DNA of 46,849 bases, taken from assembly GCA_903918885.1 (NCBI GenBank), contig CAIXFY010000077.1, forward strand, positions 1-46,849, read 5' to 3'. The stretch is from an uncultured Verrucomicrobia subdivision 3 bacterium (GTDB taxonomy: Bacteria; Verrucomicrobiota; Verrucomicrobiia; Limisphaerales; UBA11358). Both the position numbers and the translations under genes were made by a program. Positions 673-46,704 of this stretch are shown piece after piece. Numbering within the stretch: position 1 is the stretch's first letter; each line of letters starts with the position of its first letter. The notes below the pieces were generated by a model, which searched no databases, was not told where the DNA came from, and was given only the letters and a program-made list of their open reading frames with translations.

Positions 673-1025
673 TGGTGGAGGCGGCGGGAATTGAACCCGC
701 GTCCCAAGTCAACCTACCAGCCGCGACTACATGCTTATCCCAAGTAATTTTTTCTGCTATGCGATGGCGCTTGAGCTCGAGTCGCACTGCCTAGTCCGCA
801 TGATAAGATCTCGATTGCTGACGCGCGGTCTCCGTCCTCAATCATGCCTGCTGTTGCGTCCATCCACCGTAGCAGGTGTCCAATGGCGGACGTCGGGGCC
901 TTAGGCCGCGAGGGCTAGTTCTTCGTTAGCTTTTTGGTTTTGATGCGAATGATTTACGAGGCCAACGCATCGTCCTCGGCATGCCGCCTCTGGCGTGTTC
1001 ACATGGTCGAAACCAGTGCGCCCCC
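673..1025 (-). ncRNA. ssrA: tmRNA (transfer-messenger RNA)
   Basis: Rescues stalled ribosomes by adding a degradation tag. The tRNA-like half is clear on the minus strand: 5' GGGGGCG (1025-1019) pairs with CGCCTCC before A-CCA at the 3' end, with one G-U pair, and the T arm GCGGG-TTCAATT-CCCGC lies at about 684-700. The CCA is encoded (673-675). The tag frame ends at TAA (complement of 901-903). Reading back from it gives ANEELALAA if the resume codon is GCT at 930-928, matching the usual A-N-...-ALAA pattern. Length is 353 nt, normal for a one-piece tmRNA. The resume codon is inferred from the tag. Confidence 0.95.
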
Positions 1026-4950: not shown

Positions 4951-5042
4951 AAGCCCAAGTCTAAAGTCTAAAGCCCAAAGTCCAAAGCCCAAAGTCGCGT
5001 GATGTGCAGCCAACTTTGGACATTGGACTTTAGACTTTGGAC
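4951..5042. repeat. 7-mer tandem repeat block (AAAGTCY), partly inverted
   Basis: Tandem 7-mers of the type CTAAAGT / CCAAAGY fill 4951-4995, and the complementary series (ACTTTGG, ACTTTAG) fills 5013-5042, so the block can fold on itself. It occupies the whole divergent gap between nusB (start 4950) and gloA (start 5060), where promoters should lie. The same 7-mer family recurs inside tsaC at 32349-32376. Confidence 0.75.
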
Positions 5043-5059
5043 TGATAAATTTCCGCGCC

Positions 5060-22357: not shown

Positions 22358-22360
22358 CGC

Positions 22361-22391
22361 AATTGGAAATTGGCAATTGGAAATTGGCAAT
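22361..22391. repeat. 7-mer tandem repeat AATTGGA/AATTGGC
   Basis: Alternating 7-mers AATTGGA and AATTGGC, four copies plus AAT, lie just upstream of the tyrS start. They follow directly on the palindrome. Confidence 0.8.
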
Positions 22392-22404
22392 CTATCCTGC
22401 CCGC

Positions 22405-32004: not shown

Positions 32005-33014
32005 GCAGACGCGCGCCGTAAACGATCGGCGATGCCTGACCATTCCGATGCCGATGGGAGCGCTTCCACGACAATCAGTTTCGCGCCCGCTGCGTCGCAG
32101 CGGTGCAGCTCGCCGTAAAGCGCGCGCGCAAACGCCTCCGCATCGTGCGGGATGACGCATACATTTTCCGCCGCGAAGCCTGCCGGGATTTTCGTATGCA
32201 CGATGAGATGAATGACCGAGCGCTGAAACTTGAAGCTGGAAATTTTTGCGCCCAAATCCGCCTCATCCGTCCAATCCATCACGACCAGTTTCGCCTTGGG
32301 CGAATAATGTTTCTCCAACAAACCCGGACTGCGCAGCGCGGAATCCCGACTTTGGACTTTGGAGTTTAGACTTTGGATTTCACCACAGACGGCCGCAAGC
32401 GACTCCTCGTGAATCATCCCTGGCCGCAAAACTCTCGGCGGTGACACCGTCAAGTCCAGCACCGTGGACTCGATGCCCACCTGCGACTGGCCGCCGTCCA
32501 CGATGAGCGAAATTTTTTCTCCGAGTTGCGCGCGGACGTGTGCCGCACTCGTCGGCGAAACTTGGTTGGACAAATTGGCGCTCGGTGCGGCCAGTGGAAA
32601 ACCGCACTCGCGAATGACCGCCTGCATGAACGGATGGCTCGGCCAGCGCACGCCCACGGTTTCGCCGCCAGCAGTGACGAGGTTTGGAATTGTTTCCGCG
32701 CGCGGCAAAACCAAAGTCAGCGGGCCGGGCCAGAATGCTTTTGAAAATCTTTCGGCCAAATTGGGAAAATCTTTTACGCAATCACGCGCCATCTCATTGC
32801 TCGCGACGTGGACGATGATGGGATTGTGTGCGGGTCGGCCTTTGATTTGGAAAATTTTCGCGACAGCGTTTTTATCCAGCGCATTCGCGGCGAGGCCGTA
32901 AACGGTTTCTGTCGGCAAAGCGACGACTTCGCCGGCGCGTAGTAGTTCGGCAGCGCGGCGGACGGCTTTTTGAAAAAGCTCCGACGTGTGGGTTGGAAGG
33001 ATTTCGACAGCCAC
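32001..33014 (-). CDS. tsaC: L-threonylcarbamoyladenylate synthase (Sua5/YwlC type)
   Basis: Makes threonylcarbamoyl-AMP for the t6A modification of tRNAs. 337 residues: a YrdC domain at about 1-205 (EVVALPTETVYGLAANA; KIFQIKGRPAHNPIIVH; GVRWPSHPFMQAVI) and a Sua5 C-terminal domain (LEKHYSPKAKLVVM; EALPSASEWSGIADRLRRA). The linker, about residues 213-222, is encoded by four tandem copies of a 7-mer intergenic repeat (32349-32376) kept in frame. Confidence 0.93.
   Translation of the reverse strand: MAVEILPTHTSELFQKAVRRAAELLRAGEVVALPTETVYGLAANALDKNAVAKIFQIKGRPAHNPIIVHVASNEMARDCVKDFPNLAERFSKAFWPGPLTLVLPRAETIPNLVTAGGETVGVRWPSHPFMQAVIRECGFPLAAPSANLSNQVSPTSAAHVRAQLGEKISLIVDGGQSQVGIESTVLDLTVSPPRVLRPGMIHEESLAAVCGEIQSLNSKVQSRDSALRSPGLLEKHYSPKAKLVVMDWTDEADLGAKISSFKFQRSVIHLIVHTKIPAGFAAENVCVIPHDAEAFARALYGELHRCDAAGAKLIVVEALPSASEWSGIADRLRRASA
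32349..32376. repeat. Four tandem 7-mers inside the tsaC coding sequence
   Basis: On the plus strand: ACTTTGG, ACTTTGG, AGTTTAG, ACTTTGG. Same family as the block at 4951-5042. Total length 28 nt, which is not a multiple of 3, yet the reading frame of tsaC continues through it into the C-terminal domain. Falls in the interdomain linker. Confidence 0.8.
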
Positions 33015-33017
33015 AGC

Positions 33018-34226
33018 CTATTCGTAGCGCAAAGCTTCAATCGGGTCGAGCCGGGAAGCTTTCCACGCGGGATAAAAACCGGACACGATGCCGATGGCCG
33101 CGCTGGAAATACACGCAATGCCGATCCATGTGAACGGCGTCAGCGTCGGCCAGCCGGTGATTTGCGAAGTTATTTTTGCCGCCGTCATGCCCAGCGCAAT
33201 GCCCATGATGCCACCCGCCGCGCTCAGCGTGACCGCTTCAATCAAAAATTGGATCAGGATGTCGCGCCCGCGTGCGCCGACGGCCATGCGGATGCCGATT
33301 TCGCGTGTCCGTTCCGTGACGCTGACCAGCATGATGTTCATGATGCCGATGCCGCCGACGATGAGCGACACACTCGCGATGGCAGCAAGCAGCACCGACA
33401 TGATGCGCGTCGTCGAGGTGGCCATCGCCATCAATTCCAGTTGTGTGCGCACGGTGAAATCCGGTTCCGCGCTTTTGTGCCGGTCACGCATGAGCGTGTT
33501 GATGTCTTCTTGCACTTGGGTGATGGAGTCTTTGCTGGCGGCCTGCACCATGATGGAACTTACAAATGTTCGCTTGGCGATGCGTCGCATGTGGCTCGTG
33601 TAGGGAATAATCACGACATCATCCTGATCCTGACCGAACAAGTTGAAACCTTTAGATTCCAGCACGCCGACGATTTTGAATGGGATGTTGCGCACAATCA
33701 GCGTCTGGCCAACCGGATCTTCGTTAATGAACAACTGATCCACCACCGTTTTGCCGATGACGGCGACTTTTGCAATACTGCGCACATCGGCATCCGTGAA
33801 CATCGCGCCGTCGGCAATGTCCCAGTCGCGGATTTGAGGATAATCCGGCGACTCTCCCTGAATGGCGGTGTTCCAGTTCAAGCCGTTTGCCAAAATCTGC
33901 ATGCGGTCGCGCACTTCTGGGCTGACGGCTACGACATTGGCGACTTCGTTTTTGATGGCGATTGCGTCGTCTACCGTCAAGGTTGGCGCGTTGCCCCAGC
34001 CGCTGCGCGAGCCGCCGCTGCTGAAACTACCGGAGAAAACCGTCACTATATTTTGCCCCAGACTGGCGACCTTGTCCTCGACCTGTTTGGATGCGCCCGT
34101 CGTGATGCTGACCGATGCGATGACCGAGCCAACGCCGATGATGACGCCCAGCATCGTCAGCAGCGAACGCATCTTGTTTCGCCGCAGTGCGCGACCGGCG
34201 AGTCTGAAGGGCGCAAAAAATTTCAT
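33018..34226 (-). CDS. MacB-like ABC transporter permease
   Basis: 402 residues of the MacB/FtsX permease type. The N-terminal helix MRSLLTMLGVIIGVGSVIAS is followed by a large periplasmic core domain (about 45-270), then three helices (LLAAIASVSLIVGGIGIMNIML; SAAGGIMGIALG; IGIACISSAAIGIVSG). It ends PIEALRYE, the usual MacB tail. The start overlaps the stop of the ATPase gene (34223-34226). Works with the ATPase and the MacA-like adaptor to export a substrate; which one is unknown. Confidence 0.9.
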   Translation of the reverse strand: MKFFAPFRLAGRALRRNKMRSLLTMLGVIIGVGSVIASVSITTGASKQVEDKVASLGQNIVTVFSGSFSSGGSRSGWGNAPTLTVDDAIAIKNEVANVVAVSPEVRDRMQILANGLNWNTAIQGESPDYPQIRDWDIADGAMFTDADVRSIAKVAVIGKTVVDQLFINEDPVGQTLIVRNIPFKIVGVLESKGFNLFGQDQDDVVIIPYTSHMRRIAKRTFVSSIMVQAASKDSITQVQEDINTLMRDRHKSAEPDFTVRTQLELMAMATSTTRIMSVLLAAIASVSLIVGGIGIMNIMLVSVTERTREIGIRMAVGARGRDILIQFLIEAVTLSAAGGIMGIALGMTAAKITSQITGWPTLTPFTWIGIACISSAAIGIVSGFYPAWKASRLDPIEALRYE

Positions 34227-34981
34227 GCGAGCTTCACCGCCTCCTGCGCTAGGCGCAATTTTTTCAACTCTGCTTCCGCGTTCAAGCGCGCGGGCACTAT
34301 TTCATCCGTGAGAATTTTCCCATCGCGCAAGATAATCATCCGTTTGGTATAGCGCGCCACGTCTAATTCATGCGTGACCATGACGATGGTGATGCCGGCG
34401 TCGTTCAGCTTCTGGAACACGCCCATGATTTCAATGCTCGTCTGGCTGTCCAAATTTCCCGTCGGCTCATCGGCGAGCAGAAGCGACGGCTGATTCACGA
34501 GCGCGCGGGCGATGGCTACACGCTGCTGCTGGCCGCCGGAAAGTTGATTAGGTTTGTGGTTGGCGCGATCGGCCAAGCCAACGAGTTCTAGTGATCTGGT
34601 GCTACGAATCTTTTGCTCGCCGGGCGAAATGCGCTGGCTGTTGTAAAGCATCGGCATCTCGACGTTTTCCAGCGCAGTCGTGCGTGAAAGCAGGTTAAAA
34701 CCCTGAAATACGAAGCCGATTTTGTCGTTGCGGATTTTCGCCCGCTGGTCGCGGTCGAGCGTGGAAACGTCGAGGCCGTCGAGAAAATAACTTCCGCCCG
34801 TCGGCCGATCAAGGCAGCCGATCATATTCATCAACGTGCTTTTACCGGAGCCGCTGGAACCCATGATGGCCACGAATTCACCCGGCGCGATGTCCAACGT
34901 CACACCACGGACGGCGTGAACATCCACTTCGCCGGTGCGATAAGTCTTGTGGATGTCGGAAAGTTTTATGACAGCATTCAT
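34223..34981 (-). CDS. MacB-like ABC transporter ATPase
   Basis: 252 residues: Walker A GSSGSGKST, Q loop FVFQGFNLL, signature LSGGQQQR, Walker B LLLADEPTGNLD and an H-loop TMVTHE-type segment (IVMVTHELDVA). LolD/MacB family. ATG at 34981 is preferred; the frame is open 19 codons upstream only through a repeat. In a simple operon macA would end just before this start, but the S23 cassette (34989-35307) lies between them. Confidence 0.92.
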   Translation of the reverse strand: MNAVIKLSDIHKTYRTGEVDVHAVRGVTLDIAPGEFVAIMGSSGSGKSTLMNMIGCLDRPTGGSYFLDGLDVSTLDRDQRAKIRNDKIGFVFQGFNLLSRTTALENVEMPMLYNSQRISPGEQKIRSTRSLELVGLADRANHKPNQLSGGQQQRVAIARALVNQPSLLLADEPTGNLDSQTSIEIMGVFQKLNDAGITIVMVTHELDVARYTKRMIILRDGKILTDEIVPARLNAEAELKKLRLAQEAVKLA

Positions 34982-34988
34982 GGAAGGA

Positions 34989-35013
34989 AGAAGTGAGAAT
35001 GCAGAATGCAGAA
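34989..35013 (+). repeat. Left 25-bp inverted repeat of the S23 cassette
   Basis: Begins AGAAGTGAGAATGC and contains two tandem 7-mers AGAATGC. Perfect complement of 35283-35307, separated from it by 269 bp. Confidence 0.92.
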
Positions 35014-35018
35014 GTATG

Positions 35019-35303
35019 TCATGCGTCACCTCTGGCACGTTTGGAAATGGTGGTGAAAATTGCCGCCAGTTCGTCGGCTTCTTTCAGGCAATCGCCGATT
35101 TTTGCCATGAATTCCACCTTCGACCTGCCACGACGTGCTTCACGATAATTTGCCCCGACCGATGTTCCTGACCGCAACAGTTGCTTTCCCAGCACCTGCG
35201 CCACGACATCCGGCTTCGGCAGCGCGCCGTAAAGCCGAATAATCCGCCGCGCAAACATTTTCGTTCGCGGCGCAAGGTTTGTTTCTGCATTCTGCATTCT
35301 CAC
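35019..35303 (-). CDS. Four-helix bundle protein (S23 / 23S rRNA intervening sequence family), internally shortened
   Basis: 94 residues. Signatures are FARRIIRLYGALPK, LLRSGTSVGANYREARRGRSK and EFMAKIGDCLKEADELAAIF. Family members are usually ~115-125 residues; the segment between LKEA and ADEL, which normally supplies a helix (EARETEYWLRLL...), is absent, so about 25-28 residues seem to have been lost in frame, possibly by recombination at two KEA-encoding sites. GTG at 35303 lies in the inverted repeat; ATG at 35297 is an alternative. Function of the family is unknown. Confidence 0.8.
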   Translation of the reverse strand: MRMQNAETNLAPRTKMFARRIIRLYGALPKPDVVAQVLGKQLLRSGTSVGANYREARRGRSKVEFMAKIGDCLKEADELAAIFTTISKRARGDA

Positions 35304-35307
35304 TTCT
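35283..35307 (-). repeat. Right 25-bp inverted repeat of the S23 cassette
   Basis: Perfect complement of 34989-35013. It lies about 9 bp from the stop end of the macA-like gene (35316) and overlaps the S23 ORF start. Confidence 0.92.
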
Positions 35308-35315
35308 GCCTTGTA

Positions 35316-36545
35316 TTAATGCCGCGGGAAGCCGCCGCCAAACGGAGTGGTGCCGGGTGCGGACGCTGAATTTTGTGCATCGGTTTGCACAATGCTCGCA
35401 ACCACCTTGTCACCGTCCTTCAAGCCGTCCGTGATTTCGGTGTTAATGCCGTCAGTGATACCGGTGCGGATTTGCACCGGCTTCAACTGCGGCGCACTGG
35501 CGCTGCCTGCGAGAATGTAGACCGTGCGACCGCCGCGGTTACCCTTGCCTTTATGCGAGCCCTTACCGACGGCAATTGTGTTTGTCGAGGCGATAGGGTT
35601 GGTCAGGACTATCGCGCTATCCGGTGGCCGGAAGCGCAGCACGGCATTCGGCACTTTCAACGCGTCATCCCGTTGCGCGACGATGACGGAGACGTTCGCG
35701 GTCATCCCAGGTTTCAATTTGTAATCTGCGTTCGTCACGCTGATAACGGTGTCGTAGGTGACAACGTTGTTAACGGTGATGGGCGAATTGCGCACCTGCG
35801 CCACTTCGCCGTGAAAAGTGCGCGTCGGATACGCGTCCACCGTAAAATCCACGCTCTGCCCCTCCACCACGCCGCCGATGTCGGCTTCGGCCACGTTAGA
35901 ATCAATCTGCATTTTCGTCAGGTCGTTCGCGATTTGGAAAATTGTCGGTGTGTTGAAACTGGAAGCAACCGTCTGACCCAATTCCACCGCGCGCGAAATC
36001 ACCACACCATCCACGGGCGAAACAATTTTGCAGTAGTTCAAGTTCACCTGTGAATTGCTCAACGAAGCCTGCTTGATTTTCACCGTCGCTTCAGCCGAAT
36101 GCAGCGAGGCGCGGGCAATGTCGTAATCAGAACCGGAAATCAACTTGTTCGTGTAAAGCTCGCTGCTGCGATCAAACTGAACCTGCTGCAACTCAAGATT
36201 TGCCCGCGCGTTCGCGAGGTCAGCGCTGGCCTGCTCGACAGCCGCCTGATACGTCGCCGGATCAATTTCCGCCAGCACTTCGCCCTTCGTCACCGGCGAA
36301 TTGTAATCCACATACAATTTGCTGATGCGGCCCGAAACCTGACTGCCCACCGTCACATTCACCACCGGATTCAACGTGCCAGTCGCCGTGACTGTCGCGG
36401 TCAACTCGCCGCGCGTCACCGCCAAGGTGTTGAAATTCACCACCACGCCGCCGCCATGATGAAAATAAAAATAGGTGCCCGCACCCACCGCAACGATTGC
36501 GAGAATCAAGATCCATTTCCAACTACCGTTGTTTTTTTCAGACAT
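35316..36545 (-). CDS. MacA-like periplasmic efflux adaptor
   Basis: 409-residue membrane-fusion protein: N-terminal anchor helix (WKWILILAIVAVGAGTYFYF), barrel-sandwich/lipoyl halves (VGSQVSGRISKLYVDYNSPV and IVSPVDGVVISRAVELGQTV), a helical hairpin between them, and a beta-barrel domain (KPGMTANVSVIVA). Gly-rich C-terminus (PFGGGFPRH). It should link the MacB-type pump encoded downstream to an outer-membrane TolC protein. First gene of its operon. Confidence 0.9.
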   Translation of the reverse strand: MSEKNNGSWKWILILAIVAVGAGTYFYFHHGGGVVVNFNTLAVTRGELTATVTATGTLNPVVNVTVGSQVSGRISKLYVDYNSPVTKGEVLAEIDPATYQAAVEQASADLANARANLELQQVQFDRSSELYTNKLISGSDYDIARASLHSAEATVKIKQASLSNSQVNLNYCKIVSPVDGVVISRAVELGQTVASSFNTPTIFQIANDLTKMQIDSNVAEADIGGVVEGQSVDFTVDAYPTRTFHGEVAQVRNSPITVNNVVTYDTVISVTNADYKLKPGMTANVSVIVAQRDDALKVPNAVLRFRPPDSAIVLTNPIASTNTIAVGKGSHKGKGNRGGRTVYILAGSASAPQLKPVQIRTGITDGINTEITDGLKDGDKVVASIVQTDAQNSASAPGTTPFGGGFPRH

Positions 36546-46618: not shown

Positions 46619-46704
46619 GGTAGGTTATCCAAGTGGCTAAAGGGTGCAGACTGTAAATCTGTCGGCTTACGCCTTCGATGGTTCGAATCCATCACCTACC
46701 ACCA
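46619..46704 (+). tRNA. tRNA-Tyr (anticodon GUA), CCA encoded
   Basis: Acceptor stem GGTAGGT (46619-46625) pairs with ACCTACC (46694-46700); discriminator A at 46701 and encoded CCA at 46702-46704. The anticodon loop ACTGTAAAT places GTA at 46653-46655. A long variable arm (about 46662-46676) fits a class II bacterial tRNA-Tyr. The T arm reads GATGGTTCGAATCCATC. Confidence 0.97.

Follow-up and report, generated by a model that had tools for sequence, protein, structure and literature searches.

An S23 gene within inverted heptamer arrays between macA and an ATPase gene is probably a degenerate mobile element of operon spacers

S23 genes occur in intervening sequences (IVSs) of 23S rRNA, where the units are removed by RNase III at the stem. 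The locus described here raises the question of why such a gene should lie between two protein-coding genes of a macA-macB operon. The locus is found on a stretch of 46,849 nucleotides (the window), which is one contig of a draft genome of 2.46 Mb that is 91% complete (the source genome). All the genes concerned are on the minus strand. A gene for a macA-type periplasmic adaptor (35316..36545, 409 aa) is followed by an insert of 334 bp between its stop codon and the start of the ATPase gene (34982..35315), then by the gene for a macB-type ATPase (34223..34981, 252 aa from the ATG) and that for a MacB-type permease (33018..34226, 402 aa), the last two overlapping by 4 nt (ATGA). The insert contains an S23/TIGR02436 ORF (35019..35258, 79 aa from the likely ATG), whose open frame reaches a GTG at 35303, equivalent to 94 aa. 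In the S23 reading direction, the 5′ arm (35283..35307) consists of the tandem heptamers AGAAGTG AGAATGC AGAATGC AGAA, and the 3′ arm (34989..35013) is its exact reverse complement. The perfect 25-bp inverted repeat around one ORF reported in the first-pass annotation is thus borne out (25/25 bp), and it covers 40 nt at 90% when extended to 34974 and 35322, with inverted 7/8-bp arrays flanking the ORF on both sides. No transposase was found among the ORFs of the unit, and there are no rRNA family matches in the window; the element sits between macA and the ATPase gene, not in 23S rRNA. The RNA genes matched in the window are a tmRNA gene (673-1025, minus strand) and a tRNA gene (46619-46701).

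The proposed kinship of the ORF to the S23/IVS family is upheld by profile scores above the curated cut-offs, namely 53.1 bits for TIGR02436 (NCBIfam, cut-off 24) and 40 for PF05635 (Pfam, cut-off 33.8). The product had also been described as a four-helix protein of this family. Here the family assignment stands and the complete bundle does not, since 28 residues of it are missing. The missing part was located by alignment with L003, the second AGAATGC-type copy in the source genome, and L078, a copy at the same macA/ATPase junction in the relative G035. The window ORF is shorter than both by these 28 residues, in frame, with the scar within about 35067-35081, and in L078 the missing stretch has EADE(L) at both of its ends. 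The full-length L078 protein matches the solved chain 2RLD (E 3.4e-21). The window copy of S23 is probably past function.

To see what this junction looks like elsewhere, 30 MacA loci were read, one per genome. In the relative G028, whose MacA is about 85% identical to that of the window, macA and the ATPase gene are 15 bp apart. The junction could be assessed in 29 cases, and in 21 of these there is simply a gap of 3-43 bp. S23 is present in two (the window and G035), shorter remnants in three (G005, G009, and G026), possible scars in two, and an unrelated inverted repeat in one. The suggestion that the unit was inserted between normally adjacent genes, and that related genomes should contain empty sites, is supported. 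Similarity of the remnants to S23 was detected by tblastn in G009 and by eye in G005 and G026; their inverted repeats are weak, with scores of 6.5-9.5, which is about the control level. The same junction in G014 carries an 80-bp inverted GAGGATG-type repeat (L068), at the site occupied elsewhere by S23 elements or their remnants.

The ATPase/permease junction was assessable in 27 genomes, including the source genome, where it is empty. The two genes overlap by 4 nt (ATGA) in 14 genomes and by 1 nt in two, and are separated by 6-10 bp in two more. An S23 insertion of 413-425 bp is present in six, other inverted repeats (133 and 172 bp) in two, and a lone arm (40 bp) in one. On the MacA tree, G026, in which the ATPase/permease junction is filled, has as its sisters G010 and G027, in which the two genes overlap; G012, with S23, is the sister of G032, which retains the arm only. 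Support is good at the forks of G026 and G032, while the bootstrap is unsettled and the deep forks are open. On the S23 tree, a copy at this junction from another family (G058) is nested in a clade of copies from the genus of the source genome, with support of 98/95. Repeated entry at the ATPase/permease junction is the simplest reading, and the same pattern of filled and empty junctions could arise if elements had been lost precisely or the operon had been transferred. A clean target duplication is not provable: ATGA occurs on both sides only in L071, where gene function alone would force it.

The arms of the window element are tandem heptamers and not a unique repeat. An 18-nt heptamer pattern from the arms has 42 matches in the genome (at most two mismatches, overlaps counted); the reversed pattern has none. 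Of these matches, 36 lie away from both S23 ORFs that carry the pattern. Several ORF-less matches of the AGAATGC type form small inverted repeats with the same inward orientation as the window element. A search for repeat-flanked S23 ORFs elsewhere, proposed as a check in the first-pass annotation, found them in many other genomes and also at home: the source genome has six S23 ORFs, all inside inverted arrays, built from five different units, namely AGAATGC (two copies), GAGTGAT, AGAGGTC, AGTTTTT, and GTGAATG (weak). In 708 kb of the source genome (window included, two N stretches removed), there are 26 strong arrays at lag 7, whereas the other lags between 4 and 12 have 0-9 each. Several of the solo heptamer families correspond to no resident S23. 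The window itself contains another inverted repeat made of heptamers, in this case with no S23 (4956-5044, AAAGTCC-type), of a family unlike those at all six resident S23 loci, as well as single heptamer arrays with no clear partner arm at 22358-22392 (AATTGGA/C-type) and 32347-32377 (ACTTTGG-type).

Arrays around S23 genes were then counted more widely. From the genus and order of the source genome, 35 S23 loci were among the matches listed, and 34 were tested (L059, at a contig end, was left out). At least 16/21 matches were found at lag 7 in 26/34 and at lag 8 in 5/34, with 0-1 at other lags, and a level of 15 was reached on both flanks in 20/34, compared to 0/353 pseudo-ORFs. A wider set was composed of the best 80 of 554 confirmed S23 loci in named genomes, of which 79 were tested (L099 has a short flank). 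Its titles include Bacteroidota, Planctomycetes, Acidobacteria, Proteobacteria, Nitrospirae, KSB1, Omnitrophota, SAR324, CPR groups, Firmicutes, and Verrucomicrobia. Here, at least 16/21 matches occur at lag 7 in 46/79 loci and at lag 8 in 18/79, compared to 7.4% and 1.5%, respectively, of 868 controls, with 0-5 loci at other lags. Lag 7 is prominent among lags 3-12 in both sets. When the sets were pooled (113 loci from at least ten phyla, omitting L096, which is on the same contig as L046), a 7/8-bp array was present on one flank or more in 103 loci and on both in 65, leaving 10 that are array-free. The corresponding figures are 128 and 5 for 1,152 pseudo-ORFs, and 6 and 0 for 565 shuffled flanks. 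With one short-flank locus left out, arrays on both sides together with an inverted repeat were found at 67/112 S23 loci but at only 1/71 other genes of the same loci; one-sided arrays are less specific, at 102/112 and 19/71.

The heptamers differ between elements, agree between the two arms of an element, and partly follow the kinship of the S23 proteins. In the 51 loci where both flanks have 7-bp arrays, mean arm similarity is 17.3 within an element and 7.5 between elements, and it tracks protein identity (Mantel r 0.27, reached in 0/1,000 permutations); below 45% protein identity the signal is not convincing (69/1,000 permutations). A search with the L078 protein gave 31 loci that were read, with an inverted repeat scoring at least 15 in 27 of them. 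Within the nearest clade of L078 the unit shifts in both arms together, from AGAATGC by way of AGAATGA and TGAATGA to TGAAGGA, and farther out there are TAAAGGC-like units, in which both arms again change together. On the inward strand, G exceeds C in 86 loci and C exceeds G in 14.

The S23 gene is also constrained in its sequence and in its direction. For S23 pairs with finite dS, dN/dS is 0.05-0.25 (one clade, with dS near saturation), showing purifying selection on S23, with the reading frame kept, in the clade tested. S23 is in the sense direction with respect to both neighboring ORFs in 75/100 loci and antisense to both in 3/100. Orientation was taken from the longest ORF on each side and not from annotation, which is most reliable below 50% GC, where the figures are 40/43 and 0/43. 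Among annotated plasmid copies, 2/7 are antisense to both neighbors. S23 elements are thus mostly in the sense direction in spacers of co-oriented genes, implying that the S23 gene can be transcribed along with the host operon.

On this evidence we consider it likely that the window unit is a degenerate copy of an IVS-type mobile S23 element of operon spacers, which decays to heptamer-rich remnants. Such an element would be an insertion of about 0.33-0.43 kb in which a single S23 gene is enclosed by inverted arrays, the units being of 7 bp or sometimes 8 bp. An S23 oligomer might recognize the heptamer arrays that bound its own element and, together with host enzymes, promote insertion or copying. 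Internal deletions would then remove the ORF from old copies, which would survive as hairpins, single arms, or scars, and these decayed copies may be a main source of the heptamer repeats found between genes. In addition, the stem may be a site of cleavage in the transcript, as it is in 23S rRNA, although this is seemingly not what keeps the arms alike. Mobility is deduced from the distribution, that is, from a common anatomy spread over phyla, from empty, filled, and remnant sites at shared junctions, from the sense bias, and from arm heptamers that change together; no transposition was observed, and no recombinase is encoded. The broader proposal is that an unrecognized, bacteria-wide class of mobile element has S23 genes as its coding part. 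In this class, each protein would be matched to the heptamer at the ends of its own element, entry would be in the sense direction into operon junctions, and decay would be a main source of tandem heptamers, the commonest intergenic repeats. We regard the chances of this proposal as evenly balanced.

The first-pass annotation took a different view, which was that a 23S-type IVS has moved into the operon as an RNA-processing cassette, with a stem in the macA-macB mRNA that RNase III could cut, so that expression of the two genes could be uncoupled. A strong stem is indeed predicted, with the RNA of the window element folding at -152 kcal/mol (z -8.2), as anticipated; the sense bias of 75:3 in 100 loci points to transcription; and the Coxiella IVS is excised by RNase III, according to the accessible text of its description (PMC4990558). 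However, many arms pair imperfectly, and the mismatches between arms in 99 loci include 123 G-U pairs on the sense strand against 162 on the antisense strand. The slight antisense excess is seen at all four score thresholds and comes from T/C against C/T. Selection on an RNA stem was rejected on this count: given that there is no sense-strand G-U excess, the stem does not look to be maintained by pairing in the transcript, and upkeep of the arms looks like a DNA-level or recognition effect, so the putative RNA excision gains no support from the arm mismatches. An origin in rRNA fares no better, because rRNA was matched near 0/79 S23 loci, a result that is weak for any single locus, as rRNA in drafts may be masked or badly assembled. 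We infer that operon spacers are the common home of S23 and that rRNA is a special case. A cassette of this kind is thus unlikely as the explanation; the original observation is confirmed overall, and its interpretation is half right.

The arrays might instead have come first, as products of polymerase slippage and template switching (also a possible cause of their inversion), with S23 genes merely settling there. S23-free arrays are certainly common (26 lag-7 arrays in the roughly 0.7 Mb sampled from the source genome), and one-flank arrays also occur beside pseudo-ORFs (128/1,152) and other genes (19/71). What makes this order of events rather improbable is that, S23 apart, hardly any gene combines an inverted repeat with arrays on both sides (67/112 S23 loci against 1/71 other genes), that S23 similarity is detectable in one macA/ATPase remnant and visible by eye in two more, and that the heptamers partly follow the S23 clade. 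Another suggestion is that the inverted ends are acted on in trans by a DNA transposon or RAYT, with S23 as its passenger, and a search of the source genome for the Y1_Tnp transposase family did give three matches. REPIN/RAYT systems likewise consist of small inverted elements with many solo copies. Here, though, heptamer arrays were found at 0/3 of the Y1_Tnp matches, the two of these genes that were examined for repeats sit among REP-type palindromes of their own, and the 75:3 sense bias is unlike that of a DNA transposon. RAYT was therefore rejected as the driver, and we hold a passenger role to be very unlikely. These two genes (L176 and L177) are RAYT-like Y1 transposase genes that form a separate small-repeat system in the source genome. 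Lastly, retro-mobility by an Avd-like S23 with a reverse transcriptase would suit the sense bias, and Avd of diversity-generating retroelements (4DWL) is homologous to S23 proteins (2GSC), as stated in the part of PMC10053308 that was available. Avd differs in requiring a reverse transcriptase and TR/VR, and no RVT_1 match was found in the source genome (91% complete), so that we give this route the least credence of all.

A mobile S23 element, the reading preferred here, can be compared with repeats that are already known. 23S rRNA IVSs with S23p, as in Coxiella and Leptospira, are similar in that an S23 ORF lies in a hairpin-bounded insert with terminal inverted repeats that can form one stem. 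The elements described here differ in being in operon spacers, with arrays on both sides, heptamers that vary, and several copies per genome. The nearest report in print appears to be that on the Coxiella IVS, the accessible text of which gives GACAGAT heptamers upstream of its one S23p ORF (PMC4990558); priority is not proved. No work joining heptamer arrays to S23 genes in general was found in the accessible open-licence literature. Heptamers are described as the most abundant intergenic tandem repeats, with no clue to their function (PMC6344855, part of the text). Beggiatoaceae TAACTGA repeats are also tandem 7-mers between genes, but are mostly direct and upstream of start codons, and the available part of that paper mentions S23 or four-helix proteins 0 times (PMC4679880). 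If the link between S23 and heptamers holds, 23S rRNA IVSs would be a special case of a larger class, and this class may help to explain the origin of the puzzling 7-letter repeats between bacterial genes.

One such repeat is GGGAATC. In Xanthomonas these heptamers are intergenic and often in convergent pairs, and no general association with mobile elements is reported in the accessible text (PMC4692102), which mentions S23 or intervening sequences 0 times. The same heptamer forms the S23 arms in five genomes of the Luteimonas family, which have 56-514 matches to the heptamer pattern. At the Luteimonas locus L137 the arms consist of GGGAATC, and the genome of this locus has 307 matches to GGGAATCGGGAATC (at most one mismatch) and none to the reversed pattern. 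S23 was found in 29 of 60 genomes of this family. At least 20 GGGAATC matches are present in 15 of the 60, of which 13 have S23 and in two no S23 was found (Fisher p 0.0008), and 16 of the 29 S23-bearing genomes have fewer than 20. For 29 of the 39 matches in the family (L297, a broken match, was left out), the inverted repeat scores at least 13 in 27/29 loci and the lag-7 score is at least 15 on a flank in 24/29, with no separate control set.

A search of a phage collection for S23 gave one weak match. Inverted arrays were present in 8/8 plasmid copies fetched, from 8 of 24 records (seven cyanobacterial and one from Azospirillum; no separate control set). In two cyanobacterial plasmids the S23 gene lies between cas6 and cas4 in a CRISPR operon (L299 and L304). 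Their heptamers are different and the proteins are only 41% identical, so these are apparently separate elements that share a junction. An S23 element also lies between two co-oriented tRNA genes in an Omnitrophota MAG (L151, 2342-3103).
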